From positions 320,341 through 384,340 of the forward strand of contig MU004188.1 in NCBI GenBank assembly GCA_010093605.1: a stretch of DNA of 64,000 nucleotides, in the 5' to 3' direction. The position numbers and the translations under genes were made by a program. This DNA comes from Lophium mytilinum (Eukaryota > Ascomycota > Dothideomycetes > Mytilinidiales > Mytilinidiaceae). The notes beneath the pieces are model-generated. The model had not been told where the DNA came from and made no database searches. It saw only the letters and a list, made by a program, of their open reading frames with translations. Position 1 is the stretch's first letter. Each line of letters starts with the position of its first letter. Shown here one piece after another: positions 4,614-64,000 of the stretch.

Positions 4614-6319
4614 GGTGCAATAGAATAATAGTACGGGAAACAAGAGAAAGGCTGTCAACTGGCTATGAAGTTCAATTACCTGGTACTTGTACAGAGGCTC
4701 AAGCGTGCATCGATGTTAGACTAATGCGCTCATGGTGGAAGGCGAGTGCCAGCAGATTGCGAAGGAAACGAATGGAGGAAGCTGTAAGAAATGTCCAGAC
4801 GGGAAATGTACACTCTTATGACCAATGCACAAGCCCTGCTGCAGTCACAAAGAGGGCAACCGTACACGGTGAGAGCCATAGGCGAGCGGTGCCGACGCAT
4901 ATCAGGCCGTGTTAGTGACCCATCACAGGAAGACACAAATGATGTAGGAGGCTGATCGCTTTGCTACGCGGAGCCGACGCCGCCAAAAGGAAAGATTGCG
5001 TCTGCCGCGCTGTGTACCTGCCGTGATGTTGTACCAGGGAACCATGCCAGGTCGGCCTGGGCCCACGAGGCGCCATCGGAATTGATCTCAGCAGGGATGA
5101 TCGGGGCCTGCGATCGGGCCATGGACGGAGGCGGCGTCTTACGGGACCGCGATTTCAATAGAAACGGCGGCACGATACGAGGCCAGCGTGGTCGCGTTTC
5201 GTATGCCTTGGGGCGGCGCCGGCCTGATGCCTCTTGCAGGTGATGGACTTGGATCGTTGTGATGGAATATTCAAGGTTTGGCATTTGAGACTAACAAGTC
5301 ACAAAAAGACTCGGTATCGTAGAATATCGGGAGGTAAATCAGTCGGAGAGATCCTTCAAGAAAACGGACTAAAAGTGGCTGATTTCCGAGAGACCAATCA
5401 ATGGAAGCGGAGGGGACCTGCATATCCCACGGTAATATCGACCTAGCTTAGTTTGTAGGGCTAAGCGAGGTCTAGGCAGGTGTATAGAAGGATCCGCTAG
5501 CTGCAGAAGAAGCGTAGGCAGGGTTCATTATTGAAAGCGGCAGTCCACGAATCTATGATCGTACTCTAACACTTCCAATACAGTACCTCGTCTTAAGTCT
5601 ATGCACACTCGTTCATCACCGCTTGAGCTACCCTCGTACGCTTTTAGAACTCCATACACGAAGTTGGGTTTGGCGCCATAGAAATTAGGCTGCCTTTCTA
5701 CTTACTGGGCATGTTACAGCTCAACACCATCAAATTTAGACTTCTATCTAGTCGACCAGCTATCTACTGTCTAGGGCGCCCCCTACAGTGTTATTAGACA
5801 AGCAAATATCAAGCTGCAGCAACATTATACGCGTGGTGCCCGAGATAATACCTACAATTGGTACACCATATCAACATCGGCTCAACACCATGGAATTTGG
5901 ATTCCTATTTAGCCGACCAGCTCTATCTTACCTAGGACACCCCTTACAGTGTTATTAGACGAGCAGGTATAAAGCTATAGCAATGTAATATTCGCTTACC
6001 TGAACGGACACCTAGAATCAGTACACCACATCGACATCAAGCTCAACACCACCAGAACCAGCCTAGCTTTGAACCTCGCACCCACCTACTAGCCAGGGTC
6101 CTCCTCACGGCGGTATCACGGGCGCAAGAACAGAGCCCTAGTAGTCTCATCTCCCTCCCCTCCTCCCTCATCACACCACATCATATCACTCAGTCACGAT
6201 ATCGCATGTCGACACTGTCTGGAGTGGCCTCACGAGTTTACTCGTGATCTAAAATGCTGTTCTTTCTCTTATTCGAAACGCTACTACTACTCTAAGGCCT
6301 CTCACGCAGCGTCGAACAA
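4614..6319. other. Intergenic region with tandem repeats
   Basis: This is the upstream region of the LOV gene and the downstream region of the next gene. A 106-codon frame on the minus strand (4964-5284) has no family resemblance and is not called. The right half holds the repeat given separately. Confidence 0.5.
5720..6130. repeat. Degenerate ~161-bp direct repeat
   Basis: The phrase CTCAACACCA recurs at about 5720, 5881 and 6042, a steady 161-bp period. Between copies GACCAGC, CCCCTACAGTGTTATTAGAC and ACAC(A/C)AC-like blocks recur with point changes. The third unit runs into a segment at about 6085-6130 (CTAGCC-GGGTCCTC-CAC-GCGGTA) that matches the repeat family near 20.5 kb. Confidence 0.7.
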
Positions 6320-20210: not shown

Positions 20211-21026
20211 CTTGCTTACTAAGGCACTCCTGATGGCGGTGTTGGCATGGCAAGACCCCCGCACATGATGTAGAGAACGACGCAGTGGGAATCGGACAAC
20301 TCTTTGACTGGCTGGCTACCTGCTTGCTGAGGCACTTCTGACGGTGGTGTTGGTAGGGCAATGCATCCGCACACGATGTAGAGAATGAGGCAGTGAGAAT
20401 TGGACTCCCCTTTGACAGGCTAGTTACCAGCTTGCCGGGGCACTCCTGACGTTGGTATCGCGTGCGAAAGAGCTCTGAATACGATGCAAGGCACCATGCA
20501 GTGGAAACCGGACTATCCTTTTACTAGCTGAGTACCTGCTAGCAGGGGTCCTCTTCACAGTGGTACCGTGCGAGCAAGAGATTAGCCTAAGTCTTAGAGT
20601 TCACGTGTCTAATCTTGTAGCCCAGTTCTAGAAGGCTTCTTGAGGACCTATATACCCTTGGTTGGCACTGCATGTGGGCCCCCAATGTGCTTTTGAAAGT
20701 TAGCACATGCTTTCAAGGTTCCAGCAGTAGAGAAGGGGTTTCCTCCTGACAAATCCAATGTAAGCTAGCTGGGGTCCGCTTCATAGTGGTCTCAAGCGAG
20801 TAGGAGTGGAGTTCTAGCGATGGAATTTAGGTGTTGCAATCTGGGGCCTATTTTGAATGGCTTCCTTAACGGTTATGCACACCCTGTTGCCACTATTTGT
20901 AGGGCTCCCATGAGCTTTAGAAAGTGCAAGCACGATGTAAAGATTGATGCAGTGGAATCTGGGCTGCACTTTGGCTGGCCGGATTACAGGCTAGTTGGGG
21001 TCCTTCTTGCAGTGGTATTGAGTGAG
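20211..21026. repeat. Degenerate tandem repeat, ~110 bp then ~226 bp period
   Basis: The phrase CTxGCxxGGGxxCTxCTxxxxxTGGT recurs at about 20211, 20323, 20431, 20539, 20765 and 20991. The first four are about 110 bp apart, the last two about 226 bp, roughly twice that. Between them CGATGTAGAGAA and GCAGTGGGAATCGGACT-like words recur. Copies differ by many point changes. The 20539 unit matches sequence at 6085-6130, so the family is dispersed. No open frame runs through it. Confidence 0.75.
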
Positions 21027-47009: not shown

Positions 47010-50000
47010 ATGTCGCACACCTCTCCTGCTCCCTCAAATACCTCACCCTCCGCCTCGGTGAGGTCCATAGGCGTCCGTCTGCGCAATGCCCAACCCACCA
47101 CTCCTGCCTCCCCTCTGCTCGAGGGCCCCGAATTGAAGACACTCGCGCAGACCGGCCGATCGAAGACTGCACCCCTAGCCCTAGACACTCTGTGGACCTC
47201 TTCCAACGGAAATCCCCAATTGTCGGAACGCGACAGTATCTTCGCCACAACATACGCCCACCACGACAGTCCCACATCGTCACCAACCCTCTCTCCTCGT
47301 TCAGACGCTGCCGCCGACAATGAGCCAATTGAAAGTATCGCAGACATGGCAGCCTCTCCCATTCGGCGACTGATGGCCGAACCTCTGTTGCCGCCGCTTG
47401 ACCGCCCTTCTGTCAAAGACCCTCCTCGCCGCGATAGACACCGGCCTGCTATTCCTTCGGGCGAGTATACTGGAACAGCCGCCCACTCTGCAGCACAGAA
47501 TCTCCGCCATACGGGCATGAATCATTCGGGTAGCCGAGCTAGTCCGCCGCCTTTCATGAGTCCCGTCGATTCGCCAATTCAGCGGCCATCAACACCCCAC
47601 GACCATGATTTCGGCACGCGAGTGTCCCTGGGTTTGGCGACGGACGATGATAAACGCATGCGATATCGGTCTTGGCGTGAAGGAAAAGCTACATTGGGTG
47701 CGGTTGGATCTGCTGCTGTCAGAAGCAAAAGCCGGGATGGCTCTCACGTGGACAAAAAGATCGAAGCTACACTGCTGAAAGCTGAGCACGTTCCTGCTCC
47801 CAGGAGCCGGAAAGCAAGTCATTATTTAGGCCTCTTCAAGGAGAATGATGCCGCAGAGGAGCAAAGGAGAAGAGACGCCAAGGAACGCCAATCAACGGAG
47901 AAAGGTTCTCGAGCACCACACACTGGGAAAAAGCTGCCGCCAGCGAAAGCTCCAGCCCAGGACACTCCGCCTTCACTACAAAGCCTCCGACCCCGTCCTG
48001 TATCCGACGCCGATGGGACGCAAGACGACAAAGGCAAGCCGCAAGAATCGCAAGAACAAGATGCGTCCCGAACTGCGCGCAATGAGTCCAGTAGTGATCC
48101 TGTATCATTGGAACCAGTGTCTCGCGGTCGTCCATCCGAGCCGAGATTGACTCTCGGCACCGCTGCAGGGCTTGATTTGCAGAATACCATTGCGAACACA
48201 GCACAGCAAGAATTTCCGTTGCGGCTACTTGACGAGATTAGAAGCCATCACAATCTTACTCCTGGCGCTGAGCGAGGCACCTCCTTCTCCAGAAGCTTGC
48301 CCACTGCTGCGTCTGAGAGACCAAGAGGCTCATCTGCAAAGGACAAGCCAACCTCACTACATGACCACGCTGCTGACTACTTTCCTCCGGTACGGGATGA
48401 TAGCGAAGAGCCGTCACCGGTATCTGACGAAGAAGAGTCTGAGCGAGAACAGATATCCTCGGCATTGTATTTTCCTCATCGCCACAGATCTTCTGAGCAA
48501 ATATCTCCAGAGCAAGAGATTCGAAAGGCAGAAATTGAAGGGGAACGTAGAAGGAGGCCAACCCTCGTATCGGCGAGTAAACTACCCAAAGGCTGGGGCA
48601 CCGAAGAGATTGTAAAAACTCCTGAAGAGGTAGAAATTTCTCTGCAATCCCAAGATGAAAACCAATACCTGCACGGTGACCTACAGCCATCAGCTCCCTT
48701 GTCTGAGGACGAGCTTCACAACCCATTGACGTCGCCGACGGGAGCCACGTCGGTTTCCGAATCTGATTATGAATCGTTCGCAGAATCGTCTCACTCTTAT
48801 CGCGGGTACGAATCCAGCGCCACTGATGATCTAGGAACCACACCGACAGCGCCATCGATCAAGCGAACCGAGCGTAAGCCACATCATACTGCCACTCAGC
48901 CACCTGCTCCGATTGGGGCTGTCGAATTGAAGCCGTACGACCATCAGGTTGGCGGGCATACTACTGTGTACCGATTTTCTCGCCGAGCCGTATGCAAACA
49001 GCTCAACAACCGAGAAAACGAGTTCTACGAGACGGTTGAACGCAATCATCCGGAGCTGCTAGATTTCTTACCCCGGTAAGATCAATTTTGTCATCCTTTC
49101 CGTGGCTTGAAGCTGAAACATCAGCAAGATGCGCTCGCCCGCACCGGACACCCGTTCATTGTCAGTAAATCAGGCATGCTAACGTTATGCTGTCAAATTT
49201 TATAGATACATTGGCGTTTTGAATGTAACATATCGCAAAGCTCCGAAGCGTAAAAAGACCCAGAGGAAGGACGAAGCCTTTGGGGACCAAGTAGTGCAAT
49301 CTGCATCGCAGACCAACACGGGTAGCGAGTCAGTGCTTTCGTCCAAAGAGATGTCCAGGGGTCCTGAAGATCGCAAAGAAGAGGCTCCAAGGGTGGTTAG
49401 TCATTCACAGAACACGACTTCCATCCCTCAGGTTATCTTCGAGAACAACCGCCACATCATCCCGGATAACCTGTTTCGCGTTCCTCCTCGGTCCAGTACT
49501 CCCGATCCTTGGATCGGAAACTCGTCTCCCTCGTCACAGATACATCGACGATATCAGAGTGATATGACTATGAATGGGTCTTCAGAAAAGAGTCCATCAC
49601 GGCCTCCGATCCATCAGCATGCAAGCTGGGGTGTTACTACCATCAACACCAAGTTGCAAGAAGAAGTCCTTCGCCAAGTATTCGCGCCACCACCCATCCA
49701 TCATCGCTCGAGACACAGCCATCAGCATCACAGCATCCCGTCGAGGAAAATGAGGCTTGACTCGAAAGGAATCGTGGGCTCTGCGCCGACGGCTCGTAGG
49801 AATAGTGCCGATGTCAGCCAGCTGCACAATACACATTTCGATGAAGACTGCACTCGCAAGCAAGTATTGAAAGCGGAAGCGGAGCGGCATTTCCCAGGCA
49901 ACGGAGGGGACGCATCACGGCCCTCGCCTCCAGAGCGCCTCTATTTTGATTCGGACAGCGAAGCGGCCCTCAGTAGAAGTGATACAGACATGCGGCCATC

Positions 50001-51165
50001 CTCATCCCCATCCGCCATCCCACGACGCCGGCATTCTGGCGGCGGGCTACGGCGTCCCTTCGACATCGACCACAAGCAAAGACGAGGCCTGGAGTACCAC
50101 GAAGAAGACGGCTATGGCGGCGACGGAGAAGACGAGCTCTTCACCATGGACGACGAAGCACGAAACGGCGCAGTCAAACTAAACGGCATCCGCGAAGAAC
50201 CGGGCCCAGCCCAGCCGCAAGCCCCCATCCCACCCATAGCGACCATGCTGCCAGCACCCGTAACCGCAGGCCCGAAAAGCAAGCCTCATACCTCTGAGCC
50301 CAAACCCCTCGAACCCTCAAACCCAGAGGAAGCCCAGCTCCAGCCCGACGAGCGCGTGCAGCACTTCCTCCTCCTCGAGGACCTCACGGCCGGCATGTCC
50401 AAACCCTGCGTCCTGGACCTCAAGATGGGCACGCGGCAGTACGGCATCGAGGCCGATGAGAAGAAGCAGCGCTCCCAGCGCCGCAAGTGCCAGATGACGA
50501 CGTCGCGCGGGCTCGGCGTGCGCGTCTGTGGGATGCAGGTGTGGAACGTGAAATCACAGTCCTACGTCTTCGAAGACAAATACTTCGGCCGCGACCTGAA
50601 AGCCGGGAAAGAGTTCCAGGATGCGCTGACACGCTTCTTCTTCGACGGCGTCGGGAACGCGGCGGCGCGGCGGCATATCCCAGTCATCTTGGAGAAGATC
50701 AGGATGCTGGAGAACATGATCCGTAGACTGCCGGGATACAGGTTCTATGCGAGCAGTTTGCTGATGTTGTATGATCGTGGCGACGGGGAGGCTGGGGAGA
50801 AAGAGAAGGATCCTGCGCAGCGTGCTGCAGGGGAGGATGGACCGCCGAAGTCGGTGATTCCGCCGACGATCAAGCTCAAGATTGTGGATTTCGCGAATTG
50901 CGTTACCGCGGAGGATGCGCTGCCGGATTCGATCCCTTGCCCGCCGAAGGACCCGGATGGCGTGGATAGGGGCTATCTGCGCGGCTTGCGTAGTTTGCGG
51001 ATGTACTTCCAGCGTATATGGAAGGACGTCAGCGATGTCGAGTGGGTTGAGCGCGGCGAGGGCGAAGGGATGGCGCTGGGTGAGAGCGGGATCGGGCTTG
51101 GGAATGTGGGGGGCGCGTGGGAGGAGGGTACAGGCCCGGACGATGGGGGGTGGGTCAGTGTTTAA
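47010..51165 (+). CDS. KCS1: Inositol hexakisphosphate kinase, Kcs1-like
   Basis: Two exons, 47010-49075 and 49206-51165, giving about 1,341 aa. Makes inositol pyrophosphates (5-IP7) from IP6 and signals phosphate and energy status. The inositol-kinase signature PCVLDLKMG is at about residues 1089-1097. Also present are [16 protein letters not shown] across the intron, [34 protein letters not shown] and [16 protein letters not shown]. As in yeast Kcs1, a very long low-complexity N-terminus precedes the catalytic half. The splice phase gives Arg689, then Tyr690. The C-terminal tail after the catalytic core is short and Gly-rich. Confidence 0.93.
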
Positions 51166-55329: not shown

Positions 55330-56043
55330 ATGCGATTTAGGTATACAGTGCTCGTTGCTACGAGTCCATTGCTGTTCAACGTCCAGGGACTTCCAACACC
55401 TGAAGCCGTCTCCAAAGTATGTATTCATTCGTACGCCGCCAAAACTCCTATACAACTTCTCCGGTTGCCGGCTTAGCATCAAACTCTATTATCGACGAAT
55501 ATCAGGCTAACCGTACGGAAGCGAGATCTAGTAGCACCCGTAGACAGCGGTATAATCGACCTCACACCACCCGACACGACTATGACCTGGGGCAAGAACA
55601 GGCGCGAAGCAGGTGCAAACCCCGACTTAGTCGTTCCAGTCAACGGCGGCGTGATCGGTCTAACGCCTCCCGACACGACTATCACCTGGGGAAAGGACAA
55701 GCGGGATCCGGATTCAGTCATTCCCCTTGACGGTGGCATCGTCGGCCTCACCCCGCCAGACACTACTGTCACTTGGGGAGACGACACTGTAACATCTACA
55801 ACGACAATTGGAAAAGAGAAGCGTGGTCCAGATCTGGTCGTGCCGATCGACGGAGGCATTGTTGGCCTCACTCCTCCAGACACAACCGTCACCTGGGGCG
55901 ACGACACCACCGGAGATGTTTCATCAACAACAGTCGTCGAGAACGAGAAACGGGATCCCCAAGACCCAGCTTTGAGCACACCATCTTCGACCATCACCTG
56001 GGCAAAGGGCAAGCGAGACCTCCCAATTCTCGCATTAGTCTAG
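55330..56043 (+). CDS. Secreted Kex2-processed repeat precursor
   Basis: Two exons, 55330-55416 and 55477-56043, 217 aa. Choosing acceptor CTTAG at 55476 keeps the frame. Residues 1-20 (MRFRYTVLVATSPLLFNVQG) form a signal peptide. Dibasic sites end at residues 45 (RKR), 72 (NRR), 105 (DKR), 145 (EKR), 188 (EKR) and 209 (GKR). Between them are four repeats of the core GxxxLTPPDTTxTWG and a fifth weaker one (STITW). Peptides after a dibasic site often begin with EA, DP or GP, as trimmed by Ste13-type dipeptidyl aminopeptidases. This is the layout of fungal Kex2-processed repeat proteins: pheromone precursors, repellents and ustiloxin-type RiPP precursors. No UstY-like tailoring gene lies beside it, and the core has no Cys or Tyr, so the product class is open. 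Confidence 0.8.
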
Positions 56044-56897: not shown

Positions 56898-57320
56898 ATG
56901 CCACTCGTAGTGCCCGGTCTGCAGTCCAAAGACGGCGCTAGCAGCAGCGGCGACGACTGGATGAACAAGCTGATGGGGAAGAAGATTGGCGAGACGAGTG
57001 ATACGACTGTGCGTGCGCCCGTTAGTTTTGTTACATTTTCTGTTCCGCCTGCTCCGAGTTCCCCGCCCTCCTGCATACTGTTGAGATGGCGAGATAACGA
57101 GCTAACGCGTAGATGTGCAGACATTTGCTAAGCAGGAGCTGCCCAAGGAACACCGCGTGATCAAGGAGGGCGATATGGCAAGTATGGATTTCAAGCCGGA
57201 CCGGTATGCCTCCTTCCCCCCACCTTATCCTGCTATGATGGGCTGCGCTAATGCGGGTGTTGTAGGCTGAACATTCATACTGCGGAGGACGGTACGGTTA
57301 AGAAGGTTCAGTTCGGTTAG
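56898..57320 (+). CDS. Protease inhibitor I78 family protein
   Basis: Three exons: 56898-57008, 57121-57203 and 57266-57320, 82 aa. It reads MPLVVPGLQS, then DDWMNKLMGKKIGE, TFAKQELPKEHRVIKEGD and DFKPDRLNIHTAEDGTVKKV. The RxI motif followed by a PDRLNxHxxEDGxVxxV strand is characteristic of the I78 peptidase-inhibitor family. Fungal members are small, mostly lack a signal peptide as here, and are thought to inhibit serine proteases. Target unknown. Confidence 0.85.
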
Positions 57321-57713: not shown

Positions 57714-60008
57714 TCACCACCCCGTCGCAATCCCAGCAACCCCCTCATCAACCCTCCTCCGCTTCGCCCTCCCCTTCCCCATCTCCCTCTGCCCCTCCCT
57801 CTCCCCATCTCTATCCCCCACAACCTCCCCAAACCCGCTCCCAACCCTCTCCGTCACCCTCAGCAACCTCCTCAACGCCCCCACAACGGCGCCCCCGTGC
57901 TCAAACGCCATCACAATCGAGCAGCGCACCGTGAGCGCCGTGAGCCATTTCCGCGTCGCTTTCTGCTCTATGCTCTCTTGCGGCGTGGTGGGTCGAGCCG
58001 CCGCGCCACCAACGAGCCCGACCCAAAACAGGACGCCGGCGAGGTCGGACCACACGGTCTGGTGGGGTGTGCGGAGGATGGCGTGGTGGAGGGCGGTCAG
58101 GAGGGAGGCGTGGGCGGGCTGGGGTTCGCGTGGGGAATAGAGCGTTCCGAAGGGCGTCGAGGCAGTCGAGTGCACGGACGGTGTGGAGGGCGAGGGGAGC
58201 GGGAAGAAGAAGTCGTTGCCGGCGTAGGGGTACGCGACAGCCGGGGCAGACGTGGGCGTGTAGGCCGCTGTGGCTGCTGAGATGGCGGTAGTGGTCGTGG
58301 ATGCTGAGATGGTGAAGGGGGAGGTGTTGCCGCTGGCGCTGGTGCTGGCGCGCTTGCTCGCTTTGACAGCTTTGTGCCCGCGATCCTTTTTCAGGAGTTC
58401 TTCGGCGATGGTTACGGCCTCGGAGAGTTTGACGCGCTTGACGATGGCGGTCGCTTGGATGAGGGAGGCTATGCGGATGCTTTCGTAGATCATGTCGCCG
58501 AATTCTGGGTTGTGACCGCGTAGTTCGCTGGCGCTGGGGAGTTGGATAAACTTCTTTAGATATGCTTTCAGCGTCTCTTCTTTTCTCCGGCCTTCGGTGG
58601 TGGTCAGGCTGGAGGCTGTGTCGAGGTACAGATCCGTCATATTTCTCACGTCTTTTAAGAGTGAAAGTGTATGTGGCTTGCATAGGTCATTGACTTCCAA
58701 TGTCTCAAAATCCGGCCGTGGGCAGAAAAGCGGCGACTCTGGGATCTTCCTCCCTGAGACAATGTCGGGATATGACACACGCGAGCTGTATCGGAGGTAT
58801 AAAGTACTGGGCTGGGCTTCGCGGAGGATGGCGGACTGGAACGATATGCTTAATATGATGGTCGCAAGGGCGCCTTGCACACCCAAACGCTCGAGACCTC
58901 CTCGCTGCCGAACCATGGTCTCGATGCCTTTCTCGTGGAAAGCGAGCATGGCATTGTTGCCCGCGATGACCTCGCTATAGATGAGCTGGACAACAGCGAT
59001 GATGGTGGAGTCGTCAATGCGGGAGTTTGGGTTGAGGAGGCTGCGGTTGATAAGGTTGATCACTTCTTGACGGAGGGCTACACTCTCAACGCTCTCAGTG
59101 AGCCGGTAACGTGAGGCGTCTAGGTGGGCGGAGGCAATACACAGTGTGCTGAGGAAGGCATCTCGTCTATACGTGATGGCTGGTATCCAAATCTGGCCCA
59201 TTGCTTTGGTGCCAAATGCTCGACTGCCTGGGATCTTGTTAGCGCGTCTATAGTACTAGAAGAAAAGAGGAAACATGCAGTGAAACTTCAGTTGTTCTAC
59301 AGACACCCCGGGATGAGAACTCTGGAACATTCTCTTGAAGGGATCCACGGGTGTCCCAAGTGCCCGCTCTGGCGGCTCCAATACAAAGCTGCTCCGAGCA
59401 TGATTTGAGGGCCTCTGTGACGCAAAGATGAACGGATTGAGGTCGCTCTCAAGAAGACGGAGCTCCATGTCAAGTCCGTCATACGGGAGCCTATCATTTA
59501 CTCGAGCGGGTTGAATGAGGGGTTGATATTGTTGACACGCAGCAAGAGATTCAGGGATGGACAAGAGCATTTGGTTGCCCCATTGTCCAGGAGAAGGGGT
59601 CTGGATCGCGAGAGAGTTCGTCTCTTCTTCATGACTCGACGTGGGTCTTGTGGGCGAGTGCTCTGGTTTCGATGCTCCGTGGAAAAGCTTCAAGGCAAGC
59701 TCCGACGGCATCACATCTTCAACCTCATCGTCGCTCTCAGTCACTTGCGAGGCATTCGAGTCTTCACTGTGCAGTCTGGGCCGTCTCTGCTGCTGCTGCA
59801 CACGCAGCCCGCTCGCAGCGCTCATCCGCTTCCCTTTCTTCCTCAAGTGGTCGTTCATGGCCCAGGTACGGATCTTCTTCATAGCTCTGGGCTGCTTGAA
59901 ACCTATGGGATTGCTCGCAGTGATCCATAGCAGCGGCGAAGTATTCGTTGGCGATGCAGCTTTTACATTCCCGGCTCGTGGTTTCGGGCTGTCGGAGGCT
60001 GGTAGCAT
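57714..60008 (-). CDS. DUF3468 fungal transcription-factor-like protein
   Basis: About 753 aa in two exons, best joined as 60008-59257 and 59223-57714 across a 33-nt GT-AG interval. That is unusually short, so the boundary is uncertain. The N-terminus lacks a Zn2Cys6 cluster but has SPLLWITASNPIGFKQ and KKIRTWAMNDHLRKKGKR, a basic motif typical of the group of DUF3468 proteins without zinc finger. The body (AFGTKAMGQIWIPAITYRRDAFLSTLCIASAHLD, then IAVVQLIYSEVIAGN, EKGIETMVRQRGGLERLG) is the Fungal_trans_2 domain. The C-terminus is Ser/Thr/Ala-rich with a basic KGRAKRRR end. Probably a nuclear regulator; whether it binds DNA is unknown. Confidence 0.78.
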
Positions 60009-61147: not shown

Positions 61148-64000
61148 TCAATTGTATTCACCATCGCGCGCGTGTGCGCCCGGACTGCCGTGCTCGCTAC
61201 TTGGGCTGCGGCTGGTGCTGCGACTCGATCCACGGCCCGAGAAATCAATGCCCATGCCCACTGCCGTGCCATTGCGACGCCGACTTGGCACGCTCAAACG
61301 CATCTGGTCGAACATGAAGCTATGCTCCCCACTGCCCGGTTCCCCGTTCTCTCCTGTCGGAGACCGCAGCTCAACCAGCTCCAGTGCTTCGCGCAGGGTG
61401 CCACCAGACTCGTCGAGCGCCATCAGGAAACGTGCCAGCTCTTTGCACAAGTCCCAGTCCTGCTCCTGCTTCGCGCGTTGCAATAGACGCACTAGTTGCT
61501 GTGAGCTCGTGCTGAGCTCTTCGAACGTGTGCAAGACAAGCAAATAGCCACCCGCCGTCTTCAAAGAGTCCTTCTGAAGTGACTCTTCAAAAAGCTCCTG
61601 TGGCGGTGGCAAGTACGAAAACAGCGTCCGCCACGAGCGCACTTCTGTCTTGCGCGTACACTGCACCACAATATCAAGATACTGCGGGAACGAAGAGAGA
61701 AAAGAGAGCACACTCGGCAGCAAGGCCTGCTCGGGAGGGGGCGACGTGTCCACCTCTTCATCCAGAACATCATGCAGTAAGATCTCCAGGGCATGGGCAA
61801 AGTATTGCAGGTGCTGGTAGTGCTGCGATAAGTGTAGGGCTGCTGGTGAGTTGTATTGCCCGAGGTGGTGCCGAAGGAGGGCGGGCAGAAAGAGGTGCGT
61901 CTGCGATCAGGTCAGCAATGCCTCTACACAACATGATTGGTCGGTACCCACCCGAGCTACAAAGCGCATATACCCAAAGCTGACGTCCCTCCGCTGGACC
62001 AGCTCCGATTCGACTCCAAACAAGATGCCCTTGTTTATTAATGCCGACAGGGGGTAGAAGTCCACCGGGATCTTGACCGTTGACGGCAGATCTCGGCCCA
62101 GCTCAACTGACGCAGACGACAGCACGTCTAGCATATCGATCCACACGCGAACATCGCTCCCGTCGAACAGCCACAACGAATCTCGCAGATCGTGGCCGTG
62201 CACCCCGTTCATGACCAGCCCTGCAGACGGGCTTGGCGGCAGCGAGTCGTCCTGCGCCTCGAGGTTGAACGAGGGGTTGTCGCGCATGAGGACGTAGTAC
62301 TCGACGTTGTGCGCGATGATCCGCATCTCGTACTTCAGCTCCCCCGCTTCTGACGTTGCGGGCTGCAGTAGCACTAGCTTACCATCGAGCAGAAACAGAA
62401 TTGAAGCAACAGCCACATCTTGCGAAGGGTCACCGTTGTCTGCAAACGTCAGCATGTCATTGTGTGTGGCGAAGTGTGTGATCGTACGTAGCTGCTCCTC
62501 AGGTAGTATCCAGCTCAAGGCGCGCACTCGTGCCGGCGACCGGATAACGCCATTCAACGTGATTTGCCCGACCTGCACCAGCTTGACCGCTGCATTTGCA
62601 ACGCTTATAATGTAGTGATAGAGCACGTTGTCGTGTGTATAGACGAGAAGGGAATCTTCTCCCGAGGGCACCATGAGAACAATTGGGTCTGGGAGATGTT
62701 CTACATGCATTACATGATTAGTGTCTAGTGATAGCTCGCGGGAATAAATCCGAATCTGTTCTCGAGCATTAGCTTTGGTGAGACGGAGGAATGGAATCGA
62801 TGCTTACTTCATGGGAATCGCTGGACTCGATGGCGGCGATGAGCACGTGCTGGTACCAGCACATGCCCCCGCGCACCGTAAACTCATTCTCCATCAAGGG
62901 GTCCTCAAATGTTTTCCAGCGCCCGCTGTTGACGCTGTAGTGCGCCAGGCCCCGCCTGCCTGCAACTGCCACATATCTGCCGTCAGATGAGATGACAGCG
63001 CTTCTGATTGGCCATTGGTCAATCAGGTAGTGTGCTGGAATCTGGACATGATGCCAGAGTGAGACCTCTGCAGAGATTGTCGTCAGGTCGGGTAAGTCAT
63101 ATCCCCGGTAGATCATGAAGCCAGCGTTGGTCTGCATGAGCGATCGAGAGACATTGGCGGACGAGAAGCAGCCAGTGATTGCATTGCGAGCCATTTCGAG
63201 CAACCAAATTCGATTGTCCCCTTTCCCGAGGAGGACAATTTCTGACCCGCCGCCAATCCAGAACCCATCTTGAACTCCAAGCAACCAACCCTCCTCGTTG
63301 GCTTCGGAAAGAGAGCGGTCTGCGGCAAAGCTGCTAGCCCCTGGCTTGCCATATACACTCCACATCATCCAGCCGTTCTCATATCCGGCAAAGAGACAGT
63401 ATCCGTCAGGAGAGTAGCAGAGGATATTGAGCGTTCCGTGTGAACTTGAACTAGGTCGAAGCTTGTGGGACAAAGGAATATTTCCCGTGTAGTCCCGAGC
63501 CGTGTACACGTATATATCACCATTTGCACACCCGACTGCGAGAAGGGAGAACCGCGCGTTAATGGCAGCCTTGGTACCATGATCATCTTCGCCTATCGGA
63601 GAGTGGAATGCGTAACCGCGGAATAGGTTTTGTGCCTTGGGATCCTGCGATCGATCCCTTGCAAGTCTTTGCACCGCAAACCCCTTCCCATCCCCAGTTA
63701 TCCAGGCGGACAGATTCATTGGCCGGTCATACACCATCTCAGCAATCGTGGCCTTCTTGCCCAACCATGACATCCGGCTCAAGAGTTCAGTGCTGGTCTG
63801 GCTCCCCGTGTTGTCCGGGGCCCATCGTATGCACTGTATAGCTGCGGGCTTCTCCGTTGCCACTATCAGCTCATCGTCCAGAGCAAGGGCTCTGGCTATC
63901 CCGGCATCAACTCTTATGACCATGCGGAACCGCAGGCTAATTTCTCTGACGCCGCTGCCCTCGCCCGGGCCCGCATTTGCATCGTTAGCGCGGTGTGTCC
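61148..64000 (-). CDS. RIC1: RIC1-like Ypt6/Rab6 exchange-factor subunit (5' partial)
   Basis: Three exons seen: from the window edge (64000) to 62808, then 62755-61952 and 61900-61148; the start lies beyond the right edge. About 917 residues are visible. With Rgp1 it activates the Golgi Rab Ypt6 for retrograde transport. The visible N-terminal part is WD40-like (VREISLRFRMVIRVDAGIA, AIQCIRWAPD, LAVGCANGDIYVYTARD, LNILCYSPDGYCLFAGYENGW). Past the second splice come the RIC1-domain segments HLFLPALLRHHLGQYNSPAA and HYQHLQYFAHALEILLHDVLD. The C-terminus is Ser/Arg-rich. The first visible Met is not a start, because the frame continues upstream with family-like residues. Confidence 0.92.

Follow-up and report, generated by a model that had tools for sequence, protein, structure and literature searches.

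A gene at positions 55330-56043 on the plus strand of the window, i.e., the 64,000-nucleotide stretch of Lophium mytilinum DNA analyzed here, has the layout of a Kex2-type repeat precursor of the KEP class, with two exons and a product of about 202 amino acids after splicing. We tentatively propose that this precursor releases linear acidic peptides and that the most likely use of these peptides is as an extracellular signal to the fungus itself or to its kin, not as a mating pheromone. The assignment to the KEPs, in line with the Kex2-type repeat precursor recognized in a preliminary description of this DNA, is well supported by the anatomy of the gene; the signal use, which we infer, is less certain than this assignment.

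Six KR or RR sites punctuate the translation, and between them lie four copies of LTPPDTTxTWG and a fifth, degenerate copy (LSTPSSTITWAKG), just as the preliminary description had counted. The 11-residue core that it named is real, but the conserved unit is longer; it comprises 23 residues, D[LS]V[AVI]P[VLI][DN][SG]G[IV][IV][DG]LTPPDTT[MIV]TWG, and starts with D[LS]V. In unit 1 this start directly adjoins the Kex2 site, and in units 2-4 EAGANP, DP or GP comes in between. All features of the array lie on the plus strand. The first Kex2 site (KR; 55414-55524) is split by the intron of the preferred splice model, with K at 55414-55416 and R at 55522-55524, and is followed by unit 1 (55525-55593; DLVAPVDSGIIDLTPPDTTMTWG). 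An RR site at 55600-55605, in the context TWGKN-RR, leads via EAGANP, a run of three X-A/X-P dipeptides, into unit 2 (55624-55692; DLVVPVNGGVIGLTPPDTTITWG), whose end TWGKD-KR contains the KR site at 55699-55704, followed by DP. Unit 3 (55711-55779; DSVIPLDGGIVGLTPPDTTVTWG) carries a Thr-rich tail up to the KR site at 55819-55824 (GKE-KR, then GP), and unit 4 (55831-55899; DLVVPIDGGIVGLTPPDTTVTWG) a Ser/Thr-rich tail up to the KR site at 55948-55953 (ENE-KR, then DP). The degenerate fifth unit (55954-56016; DPQDPALSTPSSTITWAKG) contains the terminal KR site at 56011-56016, and the C-terminal tail DLPILALV plus the stop codon occupies 56017-56043. Compared with units 1 and 2, units 3 and 4 have longer, acidic and Ser/Thr-rich tails ahead of KR; since the C-terminal tails vary in this way, the released copies would not be identical peptides. 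KEPs are recognized by at least three similar fragments bounded by KR or RR and by repeats that make up at least 15% of the protein; here, four full units and one degenerate unit are present, and the full units alone account for 4 x 23 of the 202 residues. The core lacks both Cys and Tyr, as had been noted before: the entire 202-residue protein is devoid of Cys, and its sole Tyr is residue 5, inside the signal peptide.

The start codon at 55330 and the stop codon at 56041-56043 agree with those given in the preliminary description. Because the unspliced frame holds a single stop, a TAG at 55474-55476, the gene needs an intron, and 12 in-frame pairs of donor and acceptor sites are available for it. 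The most likely intron, which we presume to be the best of these on the basis of the fungal splice consensus, spans 105 nucleotides (55417-55521) and possesses a GTATGT donor at 55417, a GCTAAC branch site and an AAG acceptor ending at 55521; its removal yields the 202-residue product. AAG is a less usual acceptor of fungal introns than CAG or TAG. An alternative intron of 60 nucleotides (55417-55476), whose acceptor ends at 55476, would give a protein of 217 amino acids with all repeats retained, and acceptors at 55525-55547 would deprive unit 1 of its start. In the preferred model, exon 1 (55330-55416) encodes the putative signal peptide MRFRYTVLVATSPLLFNVQG, with the cleavage point placed by eye, and then LPTPEAVSK, while exon 2 (55522-56043) encodes the repeat region and the stop; across the exon junction the product reads MRFRYTVLVATSPLLFNVQGLPTPEAVSK / RDLVAPV. 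By codon usage, the gene cannot be told apart from other frames (spliced gene, 0.013; frames of exon 2, -0.051 to 0.021).

The signal peptide is the weakest element of the gene anatomy. The hydrophobic start with an early basic residue is present, but its hydropathy is modest and is equaled by 63 of the 792 open stretches beginning with ATG in the window, 31 of which also have an early K or R.

The repeat array itself stands well above chance. Beyond the first KR, the protein contains five dibasic sites, compared to 0.44 on average when the residues are shuffled, and not one of 100000 shuffles reached five. The window contains 202 stop-to-stop frames with a length of 90 amino acids or more; when we ranked them all by the number of dibasic-bounded fragments that share a 4-mer, the KEP frame came first (four other fragments; two for the runner-up). 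At the DNA level, the four full units are only 68-75% identical to each other. Their pS values amount to 0.59-0.76 and their pN values to 0.08-0.18, with a pN/pS of 0.19 summed over all six pairs, and third codon positions hold 80 of the 118 pairwise differences. Since the differences between units are mostly silent, the peptide sequence looks kept by selection, with the DNA diverged and the protein conserved. A caveat to this argument comes from the other five frames: four of them, with 1 to 11 stops over the units, gave pN/pS values of 0.99, 1.23, 1.53 and 2.65, but one antisense frame without stops gave 0.27. This antisense frame (186 amino acids; 55482-56039, minus strand) is open across the repeat array; inspected by eye from its ATG, it contains no KR or RR and has no hydrophobic start, and it is probably a by-product of the repeat composition. 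Tandem Repeats Finder reported 11 rows for the window, none of which covers the KEP array. Elsewhere in the window, at 1606-1927, 5717-6051 and 20213-20486, stretches of about 169, 161 and 108 bases, respectively, are duplicated in tandem.

X-A or X-P dipeptides follow four of the six Kex2 sites (binomial probability 0.0057, a value to be read with the relatedness of the units in mind, as the sites are not independent). They match the Ste13-type signature of alpha-pheromone precursors and suggest a defined N-terminus for the predicted peptides; the X-P dipeptides may, however, simply belong to the repeat unit. In the proposed sequence of events, the precursor would enter the secretory pathway, Kex2 would cut after every KR or RR, Kex1 would take off the C-terminal basic residues, and a Ste13-type dipeptidyl aminopeptidase would trim EA-GA-NP, DP and GP. 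The predicted products are linear acidic peptides of about 25-39 residues that begin with D[LS]V[AVI]P and carry LTPPDTTxTWG inside. Between the Kex2 sites, the four main predicted peptides comprise 25-41 residues and have net charges of -2 to -8. One predicted linear peptide, DLVVPVNGGVIGLTPPDTTITWGKD, has a calculated monoisotopic mass of 2563.353 (2+ ion at 1282.684), and its EAGANP-extended form a mass of 3102.587. The genome, searched as 24 contigs totaling 43.18 Mb with the window on contig C8, contains one match to the P-domain (PF01483), in an open frame of 913 amino acids on contig C5, and one to DPPIV_N, in a frame of 803 amino acids on the same contig; at the domain level, these are consistent with Kex2 and Ste13.

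According to sections of the survey by Le Marquer et al. (PMC6339444), neither Rep1 nor the toxic cyclic peptides nor the epichloecyclins carry the Ste13 signature, and KEPs that possess it are named as hormone candidates. Passages of Vogt et al. (PMC9769878) describe peptides of basidiomycete KEPs that were detected and that likely stem from Ste13 processing. Because the pattern is present in our precursor and reportedly absent from these other product classes, we favor a signal over other uses: the peptides would most likely serve the fungus in communicating with itself or its kin, with alpha-pheromone-like processing yet separately from the mating pheromone. A more specific version, a non-mating peptide hormone that passes through the full alpha-pheromone route (Kex2, Kex1 and Ste13) as an unrelated, Cys-free ligand and thus implies an unknown receptor, is conceivable, if doubtful.

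The main rival to a signal is a role at the cell surface, in which Rep1-like or repellent peptides released by Kex2 would be retained on aerial hyphae or in the wall. The size of the four main predicted peptides, their units rich in V, I and T and their Ser/Thr-rich tails would suit such a function, and Rep1 peptides are said in parts of Vogt et al. (PMC9769878) to form amyloid-like fibrils. The acidic character of the four peptides and the Ste13 signature, which Rep1 is reported to lack, speak against it, and we regard a surface role as rather unlikely. It is distinctly unlikely that the peptide is directed as an effector or antimicrobial at a host or a rival microbe. Some KEP genes of other fungi shift their expression during infection, as sections of PMC6339444 relate, but the peptide has no Cys and the near neighbors recognized by Pfam form no obvious pathogenicity cluster. 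They comprise an inositol polyphosphate kinase upstream (49183-51162) and, downstream, a small three-exon gene for an I78-type inhibitor that adjoins the KEP gene (56898-57320, plus strand; Inhibitor_I78, E 1.8e-08, spliced by eye), a fungal transcription factor (57717-59255, minus strand) and RIC1 (61151-63998, minus strand); this Pfam scan covered 18 of the 53 window frames plus two spliced proteins.

That the gene encodes the alpha mating pheromone precursor of the fungus, or a second one, has to be weighed because in Ascomycota the Ste13 signature generally marks alpha mating pheromones (parts of PMC6339444 and PMC9769878). The alpha-factor-like layout and the Ste13-type dipeptides would fit, and a gene for the Ste2 receptor is present on contig C1; taken together with a fungal transcription factor domain and genes that bear introns, this receptor gene also points to a filamentous ascomycete. 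The core, however, contains neither a Cys pair nor PYGxPxG, and the genome offers another candidate. On the minus strand of contig C4 (527694-527795), a Pro/Ser-rich frame of 634 codons with a signal-like start ends in APWCPYPGQKCHVPSQKPEPTETKSKKWCPYPGQNC. With its two terminal copies of WCPYPGQ[KN]C, this secreted-looking protein is a better alpha-pheromone candidate than the KEP gene; it is itself only a candidate, since the precursor would be unusually long. The Cys-type pheromone pattern gave 32 matches in the genome, compared to 16 for its reversed control. We translated 16 of the 32 and judged the remaining 16 from position alone; for 13 of those translated, the frame runs through the motif without a stop, and the two C4 copies are the only ones to share a single frame. 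The pheromone pattern of Pleosporales had no match in the genome, and neither did the MAT alpha-box, in a search run without a positive control. As far as an alpha mating pheromone is concerned, the earlier suggestion of a new pheromone is weakened by the Cys-type candidate and by the Cys-free core; a mating role for the KEP gene itself appears quite improbable.

An uncut, repeat-bearing secreted or wall protein with incidental dibasic sites, or a decaying gene, would account for the Ser/Thr-rich tails, the degenerate fifth unit and the modest signal peptide, and the peptides are so far predicted only; yet a dibasic site bounds every unit, far beyond chance expectation, and pN/pS is low, which makes this reading very improbable. 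UstYa (DUF3328) yielded no match on contig C8 and at least 24 matching stretches in the genome, all on other contigs; these stretches, in which exons and genes are not distinguished, cluster in places on contigs C18, C7, C12 and C13 and may represent ustiloxin-type clusters. The least probable of all readings is a precursor of a dikaritin-type cyclized RiPP, an option raised in the preliminary description: the layout is shared, Trp is a possible crosslink site and UstYa genes occur elsewhere in the genome, but there is no such match on the contig of the KEP gene, the mature region contains no Tyr, and the Ste13 signature is, as noted above, said to be absent from toxic cyclic peptides.

The preliminary description had called the peptide family undescribed. 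This holds for the peptide unit in what was searched, while the gene layout is that of a known class, the KEPs (in the accessible parts of PMC6339444 and PMC7329392). For the KEP protein, Pfam gave no match above the cut-off, NCBIfam gave matches at chance level only (best E 0.16), and the PDB contained no match at E values up to 10. A Pfam match to C1-set (E 0.0015) was rejected, as its 19.2 bits fall below the cut-off of 21. In the open text of the literature, the letters of the core led to an unrelated paper only, and among the papers listed for shorter pieces, the titles were unrelated and PPDTT alone matched. A protein search of the genome at E values up to 10 returned no paralogue but the KEP gene alone; the pattern TPPDTT occurs 12 times genome-wide, four of them within this gene, compared to five for the reversed control. 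Rfam had no match in the window, and a search for 5.8S rRNA likewise gave none. One more unplaced core is to be expected among KEPs given their number and diversity: one survey, as far as its accessible text goes, lists 7878 of them, with 838 types and 2560 without homologues. No function has been assigned to most KEP peptides. Should the product turn out to be a coat or orphan peptide of the usual kind, it would be just another sequence on this long list; a KEP with the Ste13 signature in an ascomycete with a seemingly separate mating pheromone, on the other hand, is a concrete candidate, amenable to testing, for a fungal peptide signal outside mating.

Several known systems can be set beside this gene. 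The dikaritin precursors of ustiloxin, phomopsin and asperipin resemble it in their Kex2-bounded repeats and in a signal peptide, which is putative in our gene, and differ in the Tyr of the core and in their UstYa genes. According to parts of Umemura (PMC7329392), 22% of KEPs have UstYa genes in their vicinity, but only three of the putative pheromone precursors do. The Rep1 protein of Ustilago maydis is likewise cut by Kex2 into peptides a few dozen residues long. It differs by the reported absence of the Ste13 signature (in sections of PMC6339444). Two-Cys alpha-pheromones have been described for part of the Dothideomycetes, Leotiomycetes and Sordariomycetes in the passages available from Le Marquer et al. 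(PMC6339444), and it is the WCPYPGQ[KN]C copies on contig C4 that resemble them. The KEP gene differs from alpha-pheromone precursors of ascomycetes by its core, without a Cys pair or PYGxPxG, and by the presence of the other candidate in the genome; it shares with them the X-A/X-P dipeptides after the Kex2 sites, the several copies and the absence of UstYa nearby. As to the KEPs at large (Le Marquer et al., 2019, PMC6339444; Umemura, 2020, PMC7329392), the motifs that the compared parts of their text name do not include the 23-residue unit, which may yet match an entry in the figures or supplementary tables. With the KEPs, our gene has in common three or more related fragments between KR or RR sites, a large share of repeats and a precursor that is predicted to be secretory.
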